Source: Minisyncoccota bacterium
GTDB lineage: Bacteria > Patescibacteriota > Minisyncoccia > JAHIHE01 > JAGLIN01
Assembly (NCBI GenBank): GCA_023142995.1
Contig: JAGLIM010000005.1
Location: 1 to 40,778, forward strand
Reading direction: 5' to 3'
DNA: 40,778 nt
Shown: one piece after another, positions 1,252-40,717 of the stretch
Numbering within the stretch: the first letter of the stretch is position 1
Layout of the letters: each line of letters begins with the position of its first letter
Notes under the pieces: generated by a model
What the model was told of the DNA's origin: nothing
Databases searched by the model: none
The model's input: only the letters and a program-made list of their open reading frames with translations
Position numbers and translations under genes: made by a program

Positions 1252-4251
1252 TTATTTTTTACCTTTATTCTCCTTAAATTTGTTTGTTACTTCTTCTATG
1301 TCCTCTCCTCCTAAAGAGGACACAACCATTACATTCCCTGGATTGGTAGTAACATTTTCAGCTGTCAATCTGAAAAAATCACCTTCAAAATTATAGGTCA
1401 TTTGCCCATAACTCAATCCATCAGAAGTATTAAATACTTCTAAAACTGCTGCTCCTCCATCAGAGCTGGTAGCTTGGAATTTTATCTCGTCTTTTTTGTT
1501 GTCATACTGCGCTTTAGTCACAGTTACAATATCAGTTGCAACTGCTTCAACAGTAGCAGTATCCATGGCTATCGCTCCACCATTATCAGTTACGATTAAA
1601 GTAACCGTATAGTTTCCGTCTGCGCTATAGGAATGGCTTACAATAGCTCCTGATACGCCTGTACCATCACCAAAATCCCATTCAAAGGAAACAATATTTC
1701 CATCAGGATCAAAAGATTCTGATCCATCAAAAACAACTTGTTTTCCAACAAAGAAAACTTGGTCCTCTCCAGCATTTGCTATTGGAGGTTGGTTTGGATT
1801 AACGGTTATAACAACTTCATCTGTCGCTGTCGCCCCGTTGTCGTCTTGGACTACTAATGTCAAATTATAAGTTCCAATTGGGAATTCATAATTTAGCAAA
1901 GCGCCATTGCCAAGAGCTACTTCTCCCTCGTACCAGACAAACAAAGCTATCTTCTCTCCATCAGGATCAAAGGATTCAGAACCATCCAGAGTTACAGTTT
2001 CAACACCATTATTGTCCCCGTCACTTACTGTCTTGTTTTGCCCCATTGAAATTGGCAGAAGATTCCCTTCAGAACTTTGATCGTATACTAGCACATCATC
2101 AACATACCAGCCTTCAAAATTGTTCGCAATATTATCCTTCGTGTCAAAGAAAAATTTTATCTGAATATTGTCTTGACCAGTATAGGAAGATATATTAACG
2201 ATATGTGTGTTCCATTGAAGCATTTGGTCACCCGATAATAGAGCAAGATCGGTGAAAATACCATCTACTCCTATTTGGACCTTCCTTTGATCCCAATAAG
2301 TTCCAGCACCTTCCGTTTGGTATAAATATCCAAACGACAAGGTGGCTGAATCAAGATCTGAAAGATTGATCATCGGAGATGTTAAACTTCCAAAATTAGA
2401 AGCCCCTGTACTATATGTATAATCTGGGTATCCAGTATTATACGCATAGCTTGAAATGGGACTACTAGATCTATAAGTCTCATGATGCCATAAACCATCA
2501 GAAGTCCATCCCGATTCACTGCTTTCCATATCATCGCTAAAAGCTACTACAGGAGTTATTGTACCTCCTGAGGCAATATTCGAAAACCCAGCGACATTTC
2601 CAACATTGTCAACAGCTTTTGTTGCGAAATAATACATTGTGTCAAATTTCAAGTTTTCAACAGTGAAATTCTCCATAGATCCAGAAATCCCAGGAATAGG
2701 TTCTCCAGTTGCTTGCAAAGCATCATCCCAATTTATGTCCGTTATTTCTTCTGTTGAATATCGAACATCATAAGAACTTGCAACACCATCCAAGTCATCA
2801 TCACCAACAGCCGTCCATGTCAGATCAATAGAGGTGTACTCAACTCTTGTTATTACAAGATTTGTAATATCTGCAGGGGAAACGCTATCATCTTCAAGAG
2901 CGTTATATGCATTAAGCCTTCCACCACTTACGGTTATACCGTCCATTGACGGAACAACATCAACACCACCAAGTAATCTTGCTTTTATCTCATCACTGTC
3001 AAGATCAGGATATTGCGCCTTGATCAATCCTGCCACACCAGCAACATGCGGGCAAGCCATTGAAGTTCCGCTATAAGCTCCATATCCACCATTTTTCAAT
3101 GTTGAATTGATAGAAACTCCAGGAGCTCCAAGATCAACAGACTCTGGTCCATAACAAGAGAAATATGCCTTGTTATCATTATGATCTGTTGCCGCTACTG
3201 CTACAATATTTGGAACATCATAGCTAGCTGGATAACGCGGGTATAAATCATTATTAGAACCACTGTTACCAGCAGCTGCAACAAATAAGATTCCAGCATC
3301 ATCAGCAACTGCTATAATATCATATAGCGCCTGAGAATAACCTCCGCCGCCCCAGCTGTTACTTATAATGTCTGCGTCCATTAAAATAGCGTACTGTATA
3401 GCTAAAATACAGTCGCTGGTATACCCATAACCTCCAGAATTAAAGGCTTTTATTGGCATTATGCTGACATTCCAATTAACACCAACGACACCAATGTTGT
3501 TATTGCCGATTGCACCGATTGTTCCGGCGCAATGTGTTCCATGATTATTATCATCCATCGGATCTCCGTCATTATTACAGAAATCATAACCATAGACGTC
3601 ATCAATAAAGGTGTTATTGTCATCATCCACACCTGGTATTCCGTTTAATTCAGCCTCATTGATCCACATATTCGCAGCTAAATCTTGATGAGTATAATCA
3701 ACACCTGTATCAACCTCAGCAATTGTAACATTCTCGCTTCCTGTCTCCACATACCATGCTTCAGGAACGTCAGTATCTGCATCCACCGTTCCGCCTGTTT
3801 GTCCTGTGTTATGCAAGCCCCAAAGACTTGAAAAACCTGGATCGTTTGACATCACATCTATGCTACGCACATAATCTGGTTCGGCATAGGCAACACGAGG
3901 ATCATTGTTAAGTTCTTCCAGAACATCCATTAAGTTCTCTTCCGAAGAAACTTCCATGAAATGTAGCCTGTCAAGACCACGCAGTTTCATTGCCTTTTCA
4001 GCCTTTTTATTCTTCTTTGAATCTGCTTTCAGGACTTTTTCAGCTAATTTCAGCTGATGTTTATCCATAAAAGCATCAAGAGAAACTCCTTCATTGAGCT
4101 TAACAATAACTTGTCCAGGAGCATACTCCACTGTCATTCTATTCTCACTCGCATTGTCTCTGACAATGCGGTCGTTCGCGTTATCATTGCTTAATGCTTG
4201 AGCTGGAAACCCAAAACTAAAAACAACGATTGACGCCATTAAAATTGCCAA
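1252..4251 (-). CDS. Secreted subtilisin-like serine protease (S8) with Fn3, MAM/immune-inhibitor-like and PKD domains
   Basis: This is an exported multidomain protease. In order: a signal peptide ending near PAQA, a propeptide (VIVKLNEGVSLDAF), and an S8 domain at about 140-450 with catalytic D181 (EVDTGVD), H237 (NNHGTHCAGT) and S397 (SGTSMACPH) plus the oxyanion Asn in AAAGNSG (about 329). Then comes a fibronectin-III-like segment at about 460-555, a jelly-roll (MAM/immune inhibitor A-like) segment starting at DDMESSESGW, and two PKD-type domains, each with DGSESFDPDG (the second also WDFGDG). No membrane anchor is seen; the end is lysine-rich. Residue 1 as annotated is TTG. A better start may be ATT at 4266-4264, which gives the positive n-region KK of the signal peptide and has GAAGG seven bases upstream, just after an in-frame TAA. 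Likely role: extracellular protein degradation or processing of surface proteins. Confidence 0.93.
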   Translation of the reverse strand: MAILMASIVVFSFGFPAQALSNDNANDRIVRDNASENRMTVEYAPGQVIVKLNEGVSLDAFMDKHQLKLAEKVLKADSKKNKKAEKAMKLRGLDRLHFMEVSSEENLMDVLEELNNDPRVAYAEPDYVRSIDVMSNDPGFSSLWGLHNTGQTGGTVDADTDVPEAWYVETGSENVTIAEVDTGVDYTHQDLAANMWINEAELNGIPGVDDDNNTFIDDVYGYDFCNNDGDPMDDNNHGTHCAGTIGAIGNNNIGVVGVNWNVSIMPIKAFNSGGYGYTSDCILAIQYAILMDADIISNSWGGGGYSQALYDIIAVADDAGILFVAAAGNSGSNNDLYPRYPASYDVPNIVAVAATDHNDNKAYFSCYGPESVDLGAPGVSINSTLKNGGYGAYSGTSMACPHVAGVAGLIKAQYPDLDSDEIKARLLGGVDVVPSMDGITVSGGRLNAYNALEDDSVSPADITNLVITRVEYTSIDLTWTAVGDDDLDGVASSYDVRYSTEEITDINWDDALQATGEPIPGISGSMENFTVENLKFDTMYYFATKAVDNVGNVAGFSNIASGGTITPVVAFSDDMESSESGWTSDGLWHHETYRSSSPISSYAYNTGYPDYTYSTGASNFGSLTSPMINLSDLDSATLSFGYLYQTEGAGTYWDQRKVQIGVDGIFTDLALLSGDQMLQWNTHIVNISSYTGQDNIQIKFFFDTKDNIANNFEGWYVDDVLVYDQSSEGNLLPISMGQNKTVSDGDNNGVETVTLDGSESFDPDGEKIALFVWYEGEVALGNGALLNYEFPIGTYNLTLVVQDDNGATATDEVVITVNPNQPPIANAGEDQVFFVGKQVVFDGSESFDPDGNIVSFEWDFGDGTGVSGAIVSHSYSADGNYTVTLIVTDNGGAIAMDTATVEAVATDIVTVTKAQYDNKKDEIKFQATSSDGGAAVLEVFNTSDGLSYGQMTYNFEGDFFRLTAENVTTNPGNVMVVSSLGGEDIEEVTNKFKENKGKK

Positions 4252-28337: not shown

Positions 28338-28703
28338 ATGAAAAAACTATTTAATAAAAATTTATTATTTTCGTTCTTTTCGATTCTAATTATATTTTTG
28401 ATAGCAGAAACAGCCTATGGTCAATGCGGACCAGCTTTAGGCGTTCCTTGCAATCCTCTTGAAGGTACGGTTGGAGATATACCTGAAGCGATCACTGTCG
28501 TTATTAGATATTTATTATCCGTTATTGGAATTGTATCTTTAGCTTTCATAGTCATTTCTGGAATTAAATATATGATGTCTGCTGGAAATGAAGAAAAAAT
28601 GAAATCAGCCAAAGAAGCTCTTTATTCTTCCGCCTTTGGTCTTGCACTAGCGCTTATGGCATATACGATCTTAGAGATAATAGTTGAAGTTTTAAATGCG
28701 TAA
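28338..28703 (+). CDS. T4SS-pilin-family small protein (VirB2/TrbC-like)
   Basis: A 121-residue pilin-like protein. A signal peptide (to about ETAYG) is followed by a short extracytoplasmic segment with two Cys (CGPALGVPC). Then comes the two-helix pilin domain: ITVVIRYLLSVIGIVSLAFIVISGIKYMMSAG, the conserved basic loop NEEKMKSAKEALYSS, and a second helix ending LEIIVEVLNA. This matches the type IV secretion pilin family widespread in Patescibacteria. It is the minimal form of the domain found at the C-terminus of the large proteins at 30674 and 36953, all ending in VLN. Assembly into a filament is inferred. No VirB4/VirB6 homologue is in the window. Confidence 0.85.
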   Translation: MKKLFNKNLLFSFFSILIIFLIAETAYGQCGPALGVPCNPLEGTVGDIPEAITVVIRYLLSVIGIVSLAFIVISGIKYMMSAGNEEKMKSAKEALYSSAFGLALALMAYTILEIIVEVLNA

Positions 28704-30673: not shown

Positions 30674-32635
30674 ATGAAAATACAAAAAGCAATTATTTTT
30701 TCAGTTGTTGTTGTTTTGTTGTTCACAACAATAAGCAACAACAGGATAGAAGCTGCTACAGATTATGGTAATTATATAAAAGTCAAATTAGATATTGGTG
30801 ATTCAGAAGTTTTTGAAGTAAAACAAACCGCAGGAGTAGCCGGTACTTTTAAAGTATCAGATACTTCCTATACCCCAGGCGGAACAACATATGAATGCGC
30901 TCTATTCTTGACAGAAGAAGATGATCTTGCCTGCGATGATGAATATGTAACATGGGTAGTGAATCAAAATGTAATCGGCAGAGGAATTGATCTAAATGCT
31001 GATACCACACTTGGAAGAATACATTGTTGTGGTGGTGGCAATCCAGCTTGTGATAAACACTGGGCTTTTACTGATATATGCGGTGATAGATGTGACTGGA
31101 CCGAAGGCGGAGGATCGGGAGCGGGAGATGTTTTCTCTCAAAATTATGGCGTTCTTTGGACTGATCTGTGTGCTGGAAATTGTACCTTGCTCATACCATC
31201 AGGAATACCAGGAGTAATAAGTTATGATTTCGCCAACGAAATTTTATGTGAGACTACATGGAAAAGATGTGACGATCCTCTTCCAACATGTTATACATAT
31301 AACAGTCGTGAATACGCGTGTACTGGAGCAATTGGAGGTATGACCTGGGATAACTGTACTGCAGCTGGAAAGAATTGTGTAGGCGGAGCTTGCGTAGCAG
31401 TATCAGGTCTAGCTTTAACCGCATCAGCTAGTCCTACTGCCATAAATGTTGGAGCAACTTCAACAATTACCTTTATAGCTACTAAAAGTAGCGTTGGTGT
31501 TGCAGGAGCAACGGTGAGTGGGATTTCAGTTTCTGCAGGGGGAGGAACTGTTTCAGCTAACAGTTGCACTACCTTTTTGATGGGGGAATGTTCAGTTACT
31601 TATACTGCCCCAGCAGGATCTACTGTTGCCACTATCACTGCAACAAAAGCCACTAAAGTTGGAGAAACTGACAGTGGCTCAGCAAGCGCTATAGTAACAG
31701 TAGCTTCTGCTGATTGGGAGTGTAGCCCACTTGGTCCTGATTATGCAGATACTTGTACAGGCTTTCCTGTTACTGATATGGGTTCTTGTGCATCGTTAAA
31801 TGGTGCTGGTCCTGGCTGTGCTGGCGTCTGGCAAAATTGCGGTTCTTTAGGCTGTGATGCCGGTTGCAATGGAGCTTGTGGAACTTGTGTTACTAAATAT
31901 CAAGCTTGCAAATGCAGTTGTGGCGGAGCAGCAACATGTAATAATGATGGAGTAGCGAATAATGGAGAAACTGGAGTAGATTGTGGCGGAGGTGGATGCG
32001 ATCCTTGTGCAGTTTGTTCTCCTAATGGATGTAATAATGATTGTCCTGCTAATTGTGACGGACATGATGATCCAGATTGCGCGGGAGCTTGTTTAGATCC
32101 GTCTTGTGGAACAGATATGGATTGTTGCACTAATACTCCTTGCATTGCTCCTCAAGTATGTAACACAACATCAGGAGTATGCGTTGACTGTTTAATTCAT
32201 GCTGATTGCGCTGGAACTGATGTTTGCTCAAATAATGTTTGTATTCCTTGTACTGGAGAAGGAAATACTCCTGCTTCTTTTGATATTTCATTATGCTGTG
32301 CTGGTCTAGATTTATGGGACAAAGATGGTACTGGAACTCCTGTTTGTACATCTGCCTGTAATCCTACTATTGGTTTTTATTGTAATACTCTCCGAGGATC
32401 AGTTGACAATATTGCACAAGCAGGAGAACAACTGATTGGATATATTCTAGGAATTATAGGATCTGTGGCACTACTTTTAATAATAATAGCAGGAATTATG
32501 TATATGACTGCTGCAGGTGTTGAAGAAAAAATTGTATCTGCAAAGAAAATTCTTTCTGGAGCAGTTATCGGACTTGGAATTGCACTTCTCGCATTCAGTT
32601 TGCTTCAAGTTATTATGACAGTATTAAATATGTAA
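30674..32635 (+). CDS. Large Cys-rich surface protein with Ig-like domain and C-terminal T4SS-pilin domain
   Basis: A 653-residue exported protein. It has a signal peptide (about 1-28), then a beta-rich region with Cys pairs (CCGGGNPAC, CGDRC), and a bacterial Ig-like (Big_1-type) domain at about 243-345 (TASASPTAINVGATSTITFIAT). A cysteine-rich stretch at about 350-555 includes DGVANNGETGVDCGGGGC and CNTTSGVCVDCLIHADC, motifs common in secreted CPR and myxobacterial proteins. The last ~78 residues are the pilin domain: two helices around AAGVEEKIVSAKKILSG, ending TVLNM. I infer a modular surface protein tethered or polymerised through its pilin domain and cross-linked by disulfides. TATAAT (30639-30644) lies 30 bases before the start. 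Confidence 0.85.
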   Translation: MKIQKAIIFSVVVVLLFTTISNNRIEAATDYGNYIKVKLDIGDSEVFEVKQTAGVAGTFKVSDTSYTPGGTTYECALFLTEEDDLACDDEYVTWVVNQNVIGRGIDLNADTTLGRIHCCGGGNPACDKHWAFTDICGDRCDWTEGGGSGAGDVFSQNYGVLWTDLCAGNCTLLIPSGIPGVISYDFANEILCETTWKRCDDPLPTCYTYNSREYACTGAIGGMTWDNCTAAGKNCVGGACVAVSGLALTASASPTAINVGATSTITFIATKSSVGVAGATVSGISVSAGGGTVSANSCTTFLMGECSVTYTAPAGSTVATITATKATKVGETDSGSASAIVTVASADWECSPLGPDYADTCTGFPVTDMGSCASLNGAGPGCAGVWQNCGSLGCDAGCNGACGTCVTKYQACKCSCGGAATCNNDGVANNGETGVDCGGGGCDPCAVCSPNGCNNDCPANCDGHDDPDCAGACLDPSCGTDMDCCTNTPCIAPQVCNTTSGVCVDCLIHADCAGTDVCSNNVCIPCTGEGNTPASFDISLCCAGLDLWDKDGTGTPVCTSACNPTIGFYCNTLRGSVDNIAQAGEQLIGYILGIIGSVALLLIIIAGIMYMTAAGVEEKIVSAKKILSGAVIGLGIALLAFSLLQVIMTVLNM

Positions 32636-32705: not shown

Positions 32706-33254
32706 ATGAAAAAAATAAACAGAATATTTTTAGCTTTATTCACAGTTCTATTTATTAACCTATCACTAATTGGATTTTCACATAATGCTAATGCGGCTCT
32801 TGGTAATCCAACTTGCGCAGCAGGCGATGGATGCAGACCAACTTGTCTTGCTGAAGTTGGAGTTGAAGATGCTGATTGTTTACCTGGCTGCTCAGTATCC
32901 GGCTCTGCAGGATTGATTCCTTGTGGAAGAAGTTGCGATGATCCAGACACTGTTAACTGGCAAGAAGATTCTCCCTGTAATCTTTGTTTTATGATTCTAA
33001 TGGGACAATTAATAATTGAACTTCTTCTTAAACTTGCTTCTGTTTTTGCCATATTAGCAATCGCTTTTGGTGGATTTCTTTATATGTTTGCCGTAGGAAA
33101 CTCCGCTACTACCGATAAAGCAAAATTAATGATCAAATATGTTCTTATTGGTTTCTTAATAGTCTTTGCCTCTTGGGCAATAATCAACACCTTACTGACA
33201 ATGTTTGGCTATATTGATCCAGTAGGTGGAGCATGGCATTCTGTAGATTGTTAG
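32706..33254 (+). CDS. Type-2 T4SS-pilin-like protein with Cys motif
   Basis: A 182-residue exported protein. A signal peptide (to about NANA) is followed by a short Cys-rich segment, then the signature IPCGRSCDDPDTVNWQEDSPCNLC, then two membrane helices around GNSATTDKAKLMIKYVL. It ends GYIDPVGGAWHSVDC. The same arrangement (PCGRxxDDPxT...CxxC, GNS...K.V..GFLI, GYxDPxGGxW..V.C) is found at the end of the 34338 gene product, defining a second subtype of the pilin domain distinct from the VLN-ended one. A conserved Cys at the extreme C-terminus suggests it is outside the cytoplasm and disulfide-bonded. The protein may be a pilin subunit. A terminator follows the gene. Confidence 0.82.
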   Translation: MKKINRIFLALFTVLFINLSLIGFSHNANAALGNPTCAAGDGCRPTCLAEVGVEDADCLPGCSVSGSAGLIPCGRSCDDPDTVNWQEDSPCNLCFMILMGQLIIELLLKLASVFAILAIAFGGFLYMFAVGNSATTDKAKLMIKYVLIGFLIVFASWAIINTLLTMFGYIDPVGGAWHSVDC

Positions 33255-34215: not shown

Positions 34216-34301
34216 TTCTCCATAAAGTCGAAGAATATTTATAATATTATATTATTGTATTCCGACATCGTACTCAAATATTGTTCGACCTTGTGGAGAA
34301 C
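34216..34301. repeat. Two half palindromes in everted order
   Basis: The right half (TTCTCCATAAAGTCGAAGAATATT-type, 34216-34239) precedes a left half (AATATTGTTCGACCTTGTGG, 34277-34301), separated by 37 AT-rich bases. The order is the reverse of a normal copy, as if a circle or tandem pair had been opened at the loop. The 34281 open frame runs through this, so its upstream part is not coding. Confidence 0.75.
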
Positions 34302-34337
34302 TATATTAAATTAACAAAACAAACTAATTTTATAAAT

Positions 34338-36296
34338 ATGAAAAAAACAAAATTACTGGGACTTTTAATAATTGTTTTAGGATTGTTCTTTGCGAAAAAC
34401 CAAGAATTATTACATGCTTTTAGTCTTGTAACTGTCTGCCAAATGCCACTGACAACTTTCTCAGATGGCAATCCAACTTTTGATGTTTCCTTTCCTCCTG
34501 GAGGTGGAACGACTTGTCTTACAATTGCGGATTGTCCCAAGGTTTTACTTCCAGCTAATGGAACTGTTTATAGTGTAAAGGTTGATATGGAGCTTACTGA
34601 CCCAACTTCAGAGATTGGAACGCCATATATCTGGATTCCAAATTCAGGCAGTAATACTTTAGTACAACTTAGAACCTCGGACGGAACTATGGTAAAATTA
34701 TATCAAAATAGCATAGATGGATTTCCAGCTTCTGCTTTTAACAACCCTTCTAGAATTACTGTAATGCCAGGAGGAGATACTTATGTCGCTAATAGAGGAA
34801 ATCAATATACAACTCGCTTAACACCAAATCCAGCACCTTCAGAAGAATATAGTTATGGAGGACAACTAGATATGGGGGCTGGAGAAACTCTTGTCAGAGC
34901 CGCTACTTTTGACAAAGATGGAAATATCTGGACAGGCACTTGCAATTCAGCATCAGGTCTTGACAAAATTAAAGTGTTTTGCGGTAATATTAGCTCTTGT
35001 GGCATCTTTCCTATTGGAACAGAATTAGCTTCTCTTTCAAATGGAATATGCAATTATGGAATGATTGGAGATGGTTATGGTTTTGTCTGGGGAGTAGGAA
35101 ACAGTACATTAGTAAGTTATAGCTACGCTGCTGGAGTAATCACACAAGTAGACAGTCACGCTGTTGCAAATTCTTATGGTCTTGGAATTGACAATGACGC
35201 AAATATTTGGGTTGCAAGATGGAAAGTTAATGGTAGCGCTTTTAAAATTGTGAGAGATACAACAGGAAATGTTATTAGTAGTATAGATTATCCTTCTGGT
35301 GTAACTGGTGGAGGAAGGGGAATCGCTGGAGATAGGGACAATAATAATTGGTTGGTAATTGATGATGACACTGTAGCCTGGACGACAAATCCATCTCGAG
35401 TTATAAAATACAGCAGTGCTGGAACTGTTATCGGAAACTTCGTAACAGGAACAGGAGCTACTGGAGCAGCAATTGACTTTGATAACAATGTCTGGGTGGT
35501 AAATTATGGCGGAGATGGTCCGAATTTTATAGATCCTAATCTTCCAGATGCTACATGTTATAATCAAGCTAATGATGGTATGGTTTATAATGGGGGCACT
35601 GTAACAAAACTTCAATCAGATGGAACCGTAATTGCAACATATCCTACTTGTGGTAATAATCCCTATAACTATTCTGATATGACAGGACTGCGAACAGTAC
35701 CTAAGTCTATAGTAATTGGTGGAGCAACTGTTCCTATTTCTGCTGGAGGAACTTTTGATATATGCACAGATGGAACTGGAACTTGTACTGACGGAACAAA
35801 TTGCGTGACAATTACTACTTTTTTATCAACTTGCTCTCCAGACGCGTCTGGAGATTGTGAAGTTCCTCTTGAAATCTTTTCTATGCAAATTGGCGATTAT
35901 ACTTTGAAAAATTTGGAAATAATATATGGAAAACAAACACCCGTAACAACTGGTGGTATTATACCATGCGGAAGAGCTTGGGACGATCCAGCAACTGCAT
36001 GGGATGATAGACAATCTTGTGATTTTTGTTATATAATGATGCTCTTAAATCAAATAACTAATTTTTTAATCAAAATTGCAGGAATAATAGCTGTTTTAGC
36101 AATAATTGTAACAGGATTCTTATTTATAACTTCCGCTGGAAACTCTGAAAGAAAAAATAACGCAAAAACCACACTTAAATGGGTCATACTTGGATTTTTA
36201 ATAATATTCTTATCTTGGTTACTTATTGATTTTCTTTTAAGCGCATGGGGATATTTAGATCCACTTGGAGGAAAATGGGATGTTGTTTGTGATTGA
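34338..36296 (+). CDS. Beta-propeller surface protein with C-terminal type-2 T4SS-pilin domain
   Basis: A 652-residue exported protein. I start it at ATG 34338 (MKKTKLLGLLIIVLGLFFA, signal peptide) rather than 34281, because the upstream frame is repeat sequence. Residues about 80-420 hold a beta-propeller like NHL/virginiamycin-B-lyase proteins, with recurring blades such as GSNTLVQLRTSDG, ATFDKDGNIWTGT, GIDNDANIWVARW and AIDFDNNVWVVNYGG. After a Cys-containing beta domain comes IPCGRAWDDPATAWDDRQSCDFC, then two membrane helices and the GYLDPLGGKWDVVCD end. That tail is homologous by eye to the whole small protein at 32706. Likely a propeller-type binding head on a pilin-like anchor; its ligand is unknown. 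Confidence 0.85.
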   Translation: MKKTKLLGLLIIVLGLFFAKNQELLHAFSLVTVCQMPLTTFSDGNPTFDVSFPPGGGTTCLTIADCPKVLLPANGTVYSVKVDMELTDPTSEIGTPYIWIPNSGSNTLVQLRTSDGTMVKLYQNSIDGFPASAFNNPSRITVMPGGDTYVANRGNQYTTRLTPNPAPSEEYSYGGQLDMGAGETLVRAATFDKDGNIWTGTCNSASGLDKIKVFCGNISSCGIFPIGTELASLSNGICNYGMIGDGYGFVWGVGNSTLVSYSYAAGVITQVDSHAVANSYGLGIDNDANIWVARWKVNGSAFKIVRDTTGNVISSIDYPSGVTGGGRGIAGDRDNNNWLVIDDDTVAWTTNPSRVIKYSSAGTVIGNFVTGTGATGAAIDFDNNVWVVNYGGDGPNFIDPNLPDATCYNQANDGMVYNGGTVTKLQSDGTVIATYPTCGNNPYNYSDMTGLRTVPKSIVIGGATVPISAGGTFDICTDGTGTCTDGTNCVTITTFLSTCSPDASGDCEVPLEIFSMQIGDYTLKNLEIIYGKQTPVTTGGIIPCGRAWDDPATAWDDRQSCDFCYIMMLLNQITNFLIKIAGIIAVLAIIVTGFLFITSAGNSERKNNAKTTLKWVILGFLIIFLSWLLIDFLLSAWGYLDPLGGKWDVVCD

Positions 36297-36952: not shown

Positions 36953-39900
36953 ATGCAAATCTCAAAAACAAAACTATTCCTCCATCTTTTTATCTCAAGT
37001 TTCTTTTTGTTTGGGTTAACTGGGATAACTAATGCTGCTGATATTTGGGTAACAGTTCCCGTAACCGCTACAACAATAAATTCTGCGATTGTTTCGGCGC
37101 TACCGGGGGATTGTGTGATAATTCCTGATGGGACATACAGCGCAATAGGACAAATAAAAGTTCCTGCTAGTATTGACGGAACAGGCGTAAGTCCGATAAC
37201 ATTAAAATCCGCAACACCCGGAGGCGTAACCTTTACGGGTAATTGCGCATCTCCGCTTATATTCATTCAAGGAGATTGGTGGGTTATTAGAGATTTTAAA
37301 TTTGTGGATGTTTCAGAGGTTGGAGATGCAAGTACATATGGAATAGCTCTGACAAATGTTAATAATACAAAAATAACAAATAATTATTTTCAGAGATTTG
37401 GCGATTTGGTAAATGTAGGCAGACAAAATTGGCCGATTTGGGTTGGTAAGAATGGTAATACGAACGGTATTAGAATTTATCACAATACATTTATTGATAA
37501 CGAAGCGATGAATATTCATGTAAGCGCCAAACTTGGAGCAATTGGATTAAATACACAGATAGATCATAATTTTTTCAAAAATACTTTTGATGATAATTCC
37601 AATGCTATGATGATTGGTTCTGGCGACTCTATTATAAATGAGAGTATGGATCTTTATACTATTGTTGAATATAATATTTTTGAAAATATGTATGGTGATG
37701 AACCAATATCAAATAAGAGTTCAAGCAATAATTATCGTTATAATGTCTTTAAGGAATCAGGGGGTCAGAGTAACAGAGGTCTGGTTTTGCGTGGCGGTGA
37801 TGATTGCACAGTAGACGGTAATTATTTCTTTGATGTTGAAAAAAATAGTATTAGAATACATGGAACAGGACATAAAATAATCAATAACTATTTTGAAAAT
37901 CCCGCTCATAACGCAATTTTGTTAGCAGAGGGAGGGATAGCGTATGCAAATGTTTCTGATATTCTTATCGCCAACAATACAATAGTTAATGCTCCGCTTA
38001 GAGGAATTTATATTGGCTGGTGGCCAGGTGGAAATATAAAACCAAATAATTTAACATTCAAAAATAATATAATAAAATCATCAACAGGAGCATTAGTTAG
38101 AGACGAAGGTCATACAGGAACATTTATATGGGAAAACAATTTACACTATGCTACGGGCGGAGCTACTTATTGGCAAAACGCAGGAGGAGTTCCTGAACCG
38201 ACAGGCATAGCCCATGCAGATCCAAATTTTACATTTGGATATGGCATCCAAAGACTGCAATCAACAAGCAATAACGCTATTCAAAAAGGAACTCCAGTCG
38301 TGGGTATAACAGACGATATAGACGGACATTTAAGAGATGCTACTAATCCAGATATTGGGTGTGATGAGTATTCTGGTTCTGCTCCGATAAGAAGACCGAT
38401 AACAGAAAATGAGGTTGGAGTCAGTTGGCTTATGGCAACTTTGCCTACTTGCGATTACTACATCAAAAACGGCGGAAACGACACCACAGGCGATGGGTCA
38501 ATAGGCAATCCTTGGGCAACGATTACAAAGGTAAACACACAAAACTTCGCAGACAATGATGTGATTTGTTTTGAAAGGGGCAGTACTTTTACCGATGCCA
38601 CGCTTACTCTTAACAGCACATCTGCCGGACGAAGTGGAATTGTTGTTCAGGATTATGGGGTGGGGAGTAAACCATGGATTAATGGAAATTCAGTTCAGCC
38701 AATTCTTATTAATCATGCCTTGATTGATTTGACATTGAGAAATATAGATATAAGTGGTTCTGATACTGCTGGAAATAGATGTAAAATTAATTATGTAGAT
38801 GGAATTGTAATAGACGGAATTGATTATGATGGACACAAGGGTTCATCATCCTACATAAGATCAAACGCCATGGCAGTATCTCGTGTTGATGGAGATATTG
38901 AAATTAAAAATTGTACATTGCAAAATGCAATAAAAGATACTTTTCTTAATTCAATAACTGCATGGGGATCAAATGACGCTCACGGAATTGTAATGTATTA
39001 TGCGGGCGATGCAAATGTTAAATCTTCTGGCACGGTAAATATTCATAATAACACAATTTTTAATATATATGCGGATTGTATGCAACTAGCAGGAATGAAT
39101 ACAACTGTGAATGTACACGATAATACTTTGTATAATTTTGGCGAGAATGCGATTGATATGAAACATTCAAAATATATAGATTTTTATAGAAATGATGTAT
39201 CGCATAATGATTTTGGTGTTGCTGGAGGTGGAGGAGGGAAAGGTTCTTCAATGGTTACATCTGGACTGTCTGCAAATTGGACAACATTTAAAGCTAGTAA
39301 TAATATTGTGCGAGATAATTATTTTCACGATACAAAATTTATGGGTATTGCTACACCTGGAACTGACGCTATTATTAAAAATAATTATATAAAAGATTGC
39401 TTTCTTGGTTTATATATAACATCGTCAGGTGCGCAAGCGTATAATAATGTATTTAATTTGACCACAGATGCAACTACCGACCCTTTGTATTCTGGAAGTT
39501 ATAATGGGACTCAGCTATCTGGAATACGTGTTTACCATGGATATGCAAGCAATAGTAAGATATATAACAACACATTATATCTCTCGTCGGGAGATTATCT
39601 GTATGGTATTGCTGTTCAAGCAAACACAAATTCGACAGGACATATAATTAAAAACAATATAATACGCATGGCAAATAATTCTGCTTCTGTTTATCCATTG
39701 TATATAGAAGACTACGACAATTCAGGAAATTTACCAACAGTCCAAAACAATCTATTATACGGCACGCATTCCAATAGAGTAAGAATTGAAGAAACACCAG
39801 GAAGTTGGAAAACATACAATTCCTCAGATCAAGCATTATGGATAGCCGCCGGTCACACAAATGCTCTTTTCACAGATCCTCTCTTTACTAACCCAGCCAT

Positions 39901-40717
39901 AGGTGATTTAACCCTCCAAACAACCTCCCCAGCCATAGACACTGGCGCAGATCTCGGCGCTCCATATAACGAAGGACTAAATATATTATCTACTTGGCCA
40001 AACGGTGTTTTTACATTAGATCAAGGTAGTTACGGCACAGGATGGGAAATAGGAGCTTATGTTGATGCTAATGTTCCTATTCCTACCTGCGCTTCTCTCG
40101 GAGGCACCTGTTGCGCTCCACTCCAAATCTGTTCAGGAGGATCCGCAGTAACCTCATTATGTGGTAATGTCTGTTGTGTCGGAGGAACTTGTACAAATGT
40201 AGCTGCTACTAATACTTGTCAGAATCAAGGATATCAATGTTGCGCTTCTTGTCAATCAGGACCTCATTTTGAATATAACGGTAATTGTTCTGGGCAAGTA
40301 TGTTGCGCAGTTTGTTCTTCACCTCCAACTCCACCACCTCCAACTTGCCAGAACCAAGGACATAAATGCTGTTTTTCTTGCCACACAGGACCTCATCCAA
40401 TATATGATGGTGATTGTCTTGGCGGACGAATATGTTGTGATACTTGTCCTCCTCCCCCAAAAGTTAGTATGAAAAACTTTATCTCAGTATTAAATTTTTC
40501 TAATCTCGTTGAAAACTTCTTAATTTGGACATTATCTATTATTGGTTCTTTATCTCTTTTGATAATTGTTGTCGGAGGAGTGATGTATATGGGTTCCACT
40601 GGAGATGAACAAAGGATTATTACAGCCAAGAGAACTGTTATTTATGCTACAATAGGACTAGGACTAATTCTTAGCGCTTATGCTGTGATTATGGTGTTGG
40701 GAAAAGTGTTAAATTAA
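36953..40717 (+). CDS. Giant surface protein: PL6-like polysaccharide lyase, second beta-helix, Cys-rich repeats, C-terminal T4SS-pilin domain
   Basis: A 1254-residue exported protein, the largest in the window. A signal peptide (1-28) is followed by a parallel beta-helix (about 30-470) that reads like family PL6 (chondroitinase B/alginate lyase). In particular, DEPISNKSSSNNYRYNVF and GLVLRGGDDCTVDGNYFF match the catalytic Lys (K255) and Arg (R280) regions, and E250 fits the calcium-binding Glu. The usual His after Arg is Gly. A second helix (about 446-1030) begins YYIKNGGNDTTGDGSIGNPWATI. Next are two ~33-residue Cys repeats (CQNQGYQCCASC..., CQNQGHKCCFSC...) separated by SSPPTPPPPT. The last ~76 residues are the VLN-type pilin hairpin (TGDEQRIITAKRTVIY). 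Enzyme activity is inferred. Confidence 0.85.
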   Translation: MQISKTKLFLHLFISSFFLFGLTGITNAADIWVTVPVTATTINSAIVSALPGDCVIIPDGTYSAIGQIKVPASIDGTGVSPITLKSATPGGVTFTGNCASPLIFIQGDWWVIRDFKFVDVSEVGDASTYGIALTNVNNTKITNNYFQRFGDLVNVGRQNWPIWVGKNGNTNGIRIYHNTFIDNEAMNIHVSAKLGAIGLNTQIDHNFFKNTFDDNSNAMMIGSGDSIINESMDLYTIVEYNIFENMYGDEPISNKSSSNNYRYNVFKESGGQSNRGLVLRGGDDCTVDGNYFFDVEKNSIRIHGTGHKIINNYFENPAHNAILLAEGGIAYANVSDILIANNTIVNAPLRGIYIGWWPGGNIKPNNLTFKNNIIKSSTGALVRDEGHTGTFIWENNLHYATGGATYWQNAGGVPEPTGIAHADPNFTFGYGIQRLQSTSNNAIQKGTPVVGITDDIDGHLRDATNPDIGCDEYSGSAPIRRPITENEVGVSWLMATLPTCDYYIKNGGNDTTGDGSIGNPWATITKVNTQNFADNDVICFERGSTFTDATLTLNSTSAGRSGIVVQDYGVGSKPWINGNSVQPILINHALIDLTLRNIDISGSDTAGNRCKINYVDGIVIDGIDYDGHKGSSSYIRSNAMAVSRVDGDIEIKNCTLQNAIKDTFLNSITAWGSNDAHGIVMYYAGDANVKSSGTVNIHNNTIFNIYADCMQLAGMNTTVNVHDNTLYNFGENAIDMKHSKYIDFYRNDVSHNDFGVAGGGGGKGSSMVTSGLSANWTTFKASNNIVRDNYFHDTKFMGIATPGTDAIIKNNYIKDCFLGLYITSSGAQAYNNVFNLTTDATTDPLYSGSYNGTQLSGIRVYHGYASNSKIYNNTLYLSSGDYLYGIAVQANTNSTGHIIKNNIIRMANNSASVYPLYIEDYDNSGNLPTVQNNLLYGTHSNRVRIEETPGSWKTYNSSDQALWIAAGHTNALFTDPLFTNPAIGDLTLQTTSPAIDTGADLGAPYNEGLNILSTWPNGVFTLDQGSYGTGWEIGAYVDANVPIPTCASLGGTCCAPLQICSGGSAVTSLCGNVCCVGGTCTNVAATNTCQNQGYQCCASCQSGPHFEYNGNCSGQVCCAVCSSPPTPPPPTCQNQGHKCCFSCHTGPHPIYDGDCLGGRICCDTCPPPPKVSMKNFISVLNFSNLVENFLIWTLSIIGSLSLLIIVVGGVMYMGSTGDEQRIITAKRTVIYATIGLGLILSAYAVIMVLGKVLN

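Follow-up and report, generated by a model that had tools for sequence, protein, structure and literature searches.

Polysaccharide lyases of family PL6 for which structures are available, such as the alginate lyases BcelPL6 (6qps), AlyGC (5gkd) and Patl3640 (7o77) and chondroitinase B (1dbg), are right-handed parallel β-helices. R216 of BcelPL6, a substrate arginine, is 98% conserved and the corresponding arginines are important in AlyGC and AlyF, H271 is 95% conserved and its mutation kills BcelPL6 with almost no effect in AlyGC and AlyF, and a Ca-independent PL6 enzyme exists (PMC6879350). As AlyGC and AlyF tolerate this mutation, H271 is a common but not a defining feature of PL6; likewise, the pairing of R216 with the subsite arginine R294 is not universal, since chondroitinase B carries a phenylalanine at the R294 position. 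In another β-helix family (PF08480), the Methanosarcina disaggregatase acts on methanochondroitin, in which it cleaves the linkages between uronic acids (PMC12369344). Patescibacteria, some of which are reported to parasitize methanogens (PMC10936435), have arrays of variable VirB2-like pilins, with multiple variable pilins per genome, and VirB2 is treated as a small protein (PMC12102498). How Patescibacteria pass through the coat of a host is largely an open question.

The window analyzed here is a stretch of 40,778 nucleotides from a metagenome-assembled genome (MAG) of 1.48 Mb in 95 contigs that is 96% complete. An open frame on its + strand (36953..40717) encodes a protein of 1254 amino acids, in which a signal peptide (amino acids 1-29, MQISKTKLFLHLFISSFFLFGLTGITNAA, hydrophobic stretch 8-26; 36953..37039) is followed by a PL6 domain (PF14592 Chondroitinas_B match at amino acids 39-347, 98.7-100 bits; 37067..37993), a second β-helix domain (amino acids 498-1045, Beta_helix PF13229; 38444..40087), a Cys-rich stalk delimited by its Cys positions (amino acids 1046-1165; 40088..40447), and a VirB2-like T4SS_pilin anchor delimited by a PF18895 match and hydropathy (amino acids 1184-1245; 40502..40687), all on the + strand. 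Unlike the PL6 enzymes named above, to which it is about 20-25% identical, the window protein is thus fused to a second β-helix, a Cys stalk and a pilin-like anchor.

The first-pass annotation had read a PL6-type polysaccharide lyase from motifs at about amino acids 235-345, and every motif it quoted is there: YGDEPISNKS at 247, LVLRGG at 277, GTGHKIINNYFEN at 304 and ILIANNTIVN at 337. The location holds, but the domain is larger than proposed, with the Pfam match covering amino acids 39-347 and the family similarity spanning amino acids 23-489 (to approximately window position 38419, + strand) in tblastn comparisons with Actinomycete proteins, one of which is annotated as PL6. Scanned alone, the domain matches PF14592 with 100 bits (E 1.7e-28, cut-off 24). 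The match is absent from the whole-protein Pfam scan and is recovered by the domain-alone scan or by a profile search of the genome; HMMER's filters probably discard it there because the protein is repetitive. A phmmer search of the PDB returned the PL6 structure 6qps at 2.6e-15 and chondroitinase B at 8.9e-10, and a four-sequence profile built from the window protein and three related PL6 proteins of loci L051 and L052 matched 15 distinct PL6 chains with E-values of 2.6e-58 to 5.7e-17 (7o77 2.6e-58, AlyGC 5gkd 4.9e-57, BcelPL6 6qps 1.3e-52 and chondroitinase B 1dbg 1.6e-29, with 7o84, 8bwk, 7dmk and 5z9t also among them). Furthermore, all of the 23 best Foldseek matches (ranks 1-23) of an AlphaFold model of the domain are PL6 structures, with a TM of about 0.5-0.64 for most, which gives the domain the right-handed parallel β-helix of the solved enzymes to the extent that a model of moderate confidence (pLDDT 54, pTM 0.66) allows. 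The best-matching families are therefore PL6, not a non-enzymatic β-helix family, and membership of the domain in PL6, judged from sequence, is solid.

Active-site residues were mapped by alignment to BcelPL6 and chondroitinase B, with residue roles taken from PMC6879350. K255 (codon 37715..37717, + strand) aligns with the catalytic lysine (BcelPL6 K249, chondroitinase B K250) and R280 (codon 37790..37792, + strand) with the catalytic arginine (R270 and R271, respectively), so that the catalytic pair proposed at these positions lines up in sequence with that of both enzymes. The chondroitinase B residues N213, E243 and E245, which we take to be its Ca ligands, correspond to N217, D249 (a Glu to Asp replacement) and E250 under an ambiguous gap placement; the expected Ca-site glutamate does fall at position 250, and, compared with the relatives, the Ca loop lacks one residue. 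The span that holds N217, D249 and E250 (37601..37702, + strand) also includes the position of a lost substrate arginine: BcelPL6 R216 is replaced by Ser226, or by Gly under another gap placement, and by His in a paralog on contig C55. The subsite arginine R294 of BcelPL6 has its equivalent in R301, and the asparagine ladder is filled within the aligned range by N144, N178, N206, N241, N264, N290 and N312, with Asn in place of Cys at its first two positions. G281 occupies the position of BcelPL6 H271, in agreement with the first-pass annotation, which had numbered E250, K255, R280 and G281 correctly and had remarked on the missing histidine. This position is also Gly in the C55 paralog and Arg or Thr in Chitinophagaceae PL6 proteins. 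The window protein thus has in common with the solved PL6 enzymes the catalytic Lys and Arg, the Asn ladder, the R294-equivalent subsite Arg and, subject to the gap placement, the Ca-site ligands, and differs from them in the absence of R216 and H271 equivalents and in its shorter Ca loop. We consider the PL6 domain likely to be enzymatically active on the strength of these alignments, with less certainty than had been implied, because the R216 equivalent is also lost.

Our preferred reading, which we hold to be probable, is that a Patescibacteria cell secretes the protein as a PL6-family lyase, which stays tethered to the membrane and likely thins matrix locally for contact. The Sec signal would export the protein, and the topology suggests that it is retained in the membrane by the Cys-rich stalk and the two-helix VirB2-like pilin domain, both β-helices lying outside. 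By analogy with the aligned residues of solved PL6 enzymes, the PL6 helix would bind a uronate-containing polymer, a Ca ion at N217, D249 and E250 would neutralize the uronate carboxylate, and β-elimination would proceed with K255 taking the C5 proton and R280 helping to expel the leaving sugar. Its likely role would be to thin, locally, the polysaccharide matrix that surrounds a host cell or a biofilm cell so that contact becomes possible, rather than to provide food. With its recognizable catalytic pair, the putative membrane-held lyase offers a specific enzyme for assay, and knowing what it cuts would give an indication of the host.

The gene has two mosaic paralogs in the same genome, on contigs C55 and C56, which carry the same signal peptide. 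The C55 paralog shares the start of the stalk with the window gene, its contig ending inside the gene, and carries a PL6 domain followed by a different second β-helix; the C56 paralog (1235 amino acids, L034:8282-12025, + strand) shares the stalk and the anchor and carries two other β-helices in place of PL6. The second helix of the C55 protein and the first helix of the C56 protein are 60% identical. As a separate observation, the two β-helices of the C56 paralog are related to each other and have DNA words of up to 44 nt in common. Between the window and C55 PL6 domains, a breakpoint scan placed a nucleotide divergence of 45.6% within amino acids 127-278 (37331..37784, + strand) against 4.6% outside this segment, with a log-likelihood gain of 170 compared to 15.7 for the best of 20 codon shuffles, and the flanks contain exact runs of up to 179 nt between the two PL6 genes. 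The exchanged segment covers the Ca site and the Lys, and Arg280 lies just past its end. We attribute this pattern to recombination, either by exchange of a cassette or by gene conversion of the flanking sequence, and not to gradual drift. The genes neighboring the two PL6 loci are homologs of 43% and 62% identity, from which we conclude that the loci duplicated long ago and exchanged sequence recently. Taken together, the comparison shows the gene to be a member of a small mosaic set built on one signal/stalk/anchor frame, which carries β-helix cassettes exchanged by recombination.

The mosaic also bears on the alternative that the protein is a PL6-derived adhesin, which would hold on to uronate polymers at the surface of a host or a biofilm but leave them uncut. 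Counted against a lyase and in favor of an adhesin are the loss of the R216 and H271 equivalents in both PL6 paralogs and the shortened Ca loop, and large mosaic surface β-helices on a Cys-rich stalk suit adhesins as well. However, the C55 paralog keeps E, K and R despite the divergent segment around the active site, and both paralogs retain the Lys, the Arg and all of the Ca-site positions (three) despite a 46% nucleotide difference around them, which argues against a pure binder, in which selection for their retention would be weaker. The retention of E, K and R would be consistent with selection for catalysis, and the missing His is found likewise in the Chitinophagaceae PL6 proteins. We therefore regard the adhesin as rather unlikely.

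For the C-terminal part, the first-pass annotation had proposed a pilin-like anchor. PF18895 (T4SS_pilin) indeed matches amino acids 1184-1245, with two hydrophobic helices placed by hydropathy at 1189-1207 and 1232-1250; the match scores 28.8 bits in the genome search and 27.1 bits for the tail alone against a cut-off of 26.6, and in the whole-protein scan it falls under this cut-off with 23.5 bits. The genome encodes many T4SS_pilin proteins, and its small stand-alone pilin on contig C44 is 49% identical to the anchor. The stalk contains 24 Cys and two copies of a CCxxC...GPHxxYxGxC unit. The neighbor upstream in the window is an NHL/β-propeller-like protein (34281..36296, + strand) that has a pilin anchor of this type as well (PF18895, 43 bits); a homolog of this neighbor, 43% identical, lies near the C55 PL6 gene. 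The listed TTG start of this 671-amino-acid neighbor at 34281 is probably unused, and an ATG at 34338 gives it a typical signal peptide start (MKKTKLLG). In all, four more T4SS_pilin-like C-termini are found upstream of the PL6 gene (window 28338-28703, 30674-32635, 32706-33254 and 34281-36296), the ectodomain being NHL/propeller-like in one of these proteins and Cys-rich in another.

The anchor belongs to the same family as the VirB2-like/T4SS_pilin proteins described in Patescibacteria, which come as variable sets (PMC12102498), and it is a true T4SS_pilin match close to a stand-alone pilin; all of this would suit a decorated pilin, whose VirB2-like domain polymerizes into or caps a T4SS-like pilus with the lyase on the filament. 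Such an arrangement, which is compatible with lyase activity, is nonetheless unlikely: unlike the small protein of those studies, the window pilin anchors a protein whose outer part exceeds 1100 residues, and a load of this size is hard to fit in a helical VirB2 filament except at its tip.

A genome of the same family (G009) has a similar signal peptide and conserves the stalk and the anchor, with another β-helix-like domain as cargo. Two sister genera (G002 and G006) encode PF08480 disaggregatase-related β-helix proteins, several of which end in a T4SS_pilin-like anchor (L100:2355-4574, L110:796-2955, L112:607-2874 and the fragment L114:814-1581, − strand), with a T4SS_pilin match under the curated cut-off for L110 and above it for L100, L112 and L114; no pilin match was found within the stretch examined for the G002 proteins L107 and L109. 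Among 14 control genomes, PF08480 occurs in Methanosarcina only. The L100, L110 and L112 proteins have the layout of the window protein, a glycan-enzyme-like β-helix followed by a T4SS_pilin anchor, but their cargo comes from another β-helix family, related to the methanochondroitin-cutting enzyme and not to PL6. As disaggregatase-related β-helices share the anchor type in sister genera, a pilin-anchored platform with matrix-cutting cargo can be read from these proteins, and they and the mosaic paralogs suggest that display is general. We put forward only tentatively the broader proposition that, in one Patescibacteria family, an anchor derived from a pilin, combined with a common signal and stalk, serves to display interchangeable polysaccharide-cutting β-helices (PL6 here, disaggregatase-related in sister genera), and that the family swaps rung cassettes near the active site by recombination to track the chemistry of the host matrix. 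The relation of the sister-genus cargo to a methanochondroitin-cutting enzyme is a lead only, to methanogenic archaea as hosts.

The ribosomal protein uL30, whose loss is a trait of Patescibacteria, is missing from this genome and 36 relatives and is present in 13 of the 14 controls. Considering (i) this absence, (ii) the many T4SS_pilin proteins, and (iii) relatives with genomes of 0.5-1.5 Mb, the genome points to Patescibacteria, and the host association that had been suggested for this organism fits such a genome. A real PL6 core was found in no other genome of three overlapping samples of relatives (141, 380 and 384); the other PF14592 matches in relatives were rejected as PL6, as they extend no further than roughly profile position 90, the part that forms the β-helix cap. 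To judge by titles and the openings of abstracts, the literature on Patescibacteria or Parcubacteria with alginate lyase holds no apparent report of such an enzyme.

The nearest named sequences come from Chitinophagaceae and Actinomycetes at about 30% identity, which suggests an old transfer or an unsampled source. The closest sequences found are the Chitinophagaceae PL6 proteins of L051 and L052 and a similar protein of L102, at 29-35% identity over the domain; those of L051 and L052 also lack the active-site His, but keep the R216 equivalent. The L052 protein ends in a Por_Secre_tail sorting domain instead of a pilin-like anchor and has an alginate-lyase-family gene nearby. This gene (L052:11075-12250, + strand, Alginate_lyase PF05426) is accompanied by SusC/SusD-like and sulfatase-like genes in a likely uronate utilization locus. 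A phage origin of the PL6 gene was rejected, as the phage collection contained no PL6 match, and a viral-contig scan with a Chitinophagaceae PL6 query gave no matches. The one IMG/VR match, L102, has a PL6 gene with a type IX secretion signal domain nearby and Bacteroidota-type neighbors, and looks like Bacteroidota DNA, not a virus. Contamination as a simple answer was likewise rejected, given that C55 holds the only GroEL and that G009 shares the signal, stalk and anchor.

PL6 genes elsewhere (in Streptomyces and Chitinophagaceae) adjoin sugar-uptake or sugar-use genes, as would be expected if uronate oligomers freed at the surface were taken up and fermented, but this is improbable here, as a search covering the KDPG/KHG aldolase route did not find that enzyme in the 96%-complete genome. 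A chimeric assembly of near-identical paralogs or strains, in which the joining of PL6, second domain and anchor is partly wrong, could be suspected in a MAG of 95 contigs with exact runs of up to 179 nt between the PL6 genes and a C55 contig that ends inside its copy, but it is very improbable, because C56 independently has the same architecture with its own cassettes, C55 carries the single-copy GroEL and is not an obvious contaminant, and the paralog copies, whose shared flanks differ by about 5%, are not collapsed.

The second β-helix varies among the paralogs. In the window protein, its N-terminal part resembles lacto-N-biosidase-type β-helices (phmmer, 7v6m 3e-8 and 6kqs 1e-4), and a profile of four such second domains also retrieves 6kqs; the comparison with GH136 lacto-N-biosidase is confidently aligned for this N-terminal part only, and a single-sequence model of the domain was too poor for use (pLDDT 32). 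With this domain as the query, the viral-contig scan gave no matches. Elsewhere in the window (1252-4251, − strand), a subtilisin-like protease that carries fn3 and PKD domains in addition to Peptidase_S8 (197 bits) would be a further degradative enzyme that is likely secreted or held at the surface.
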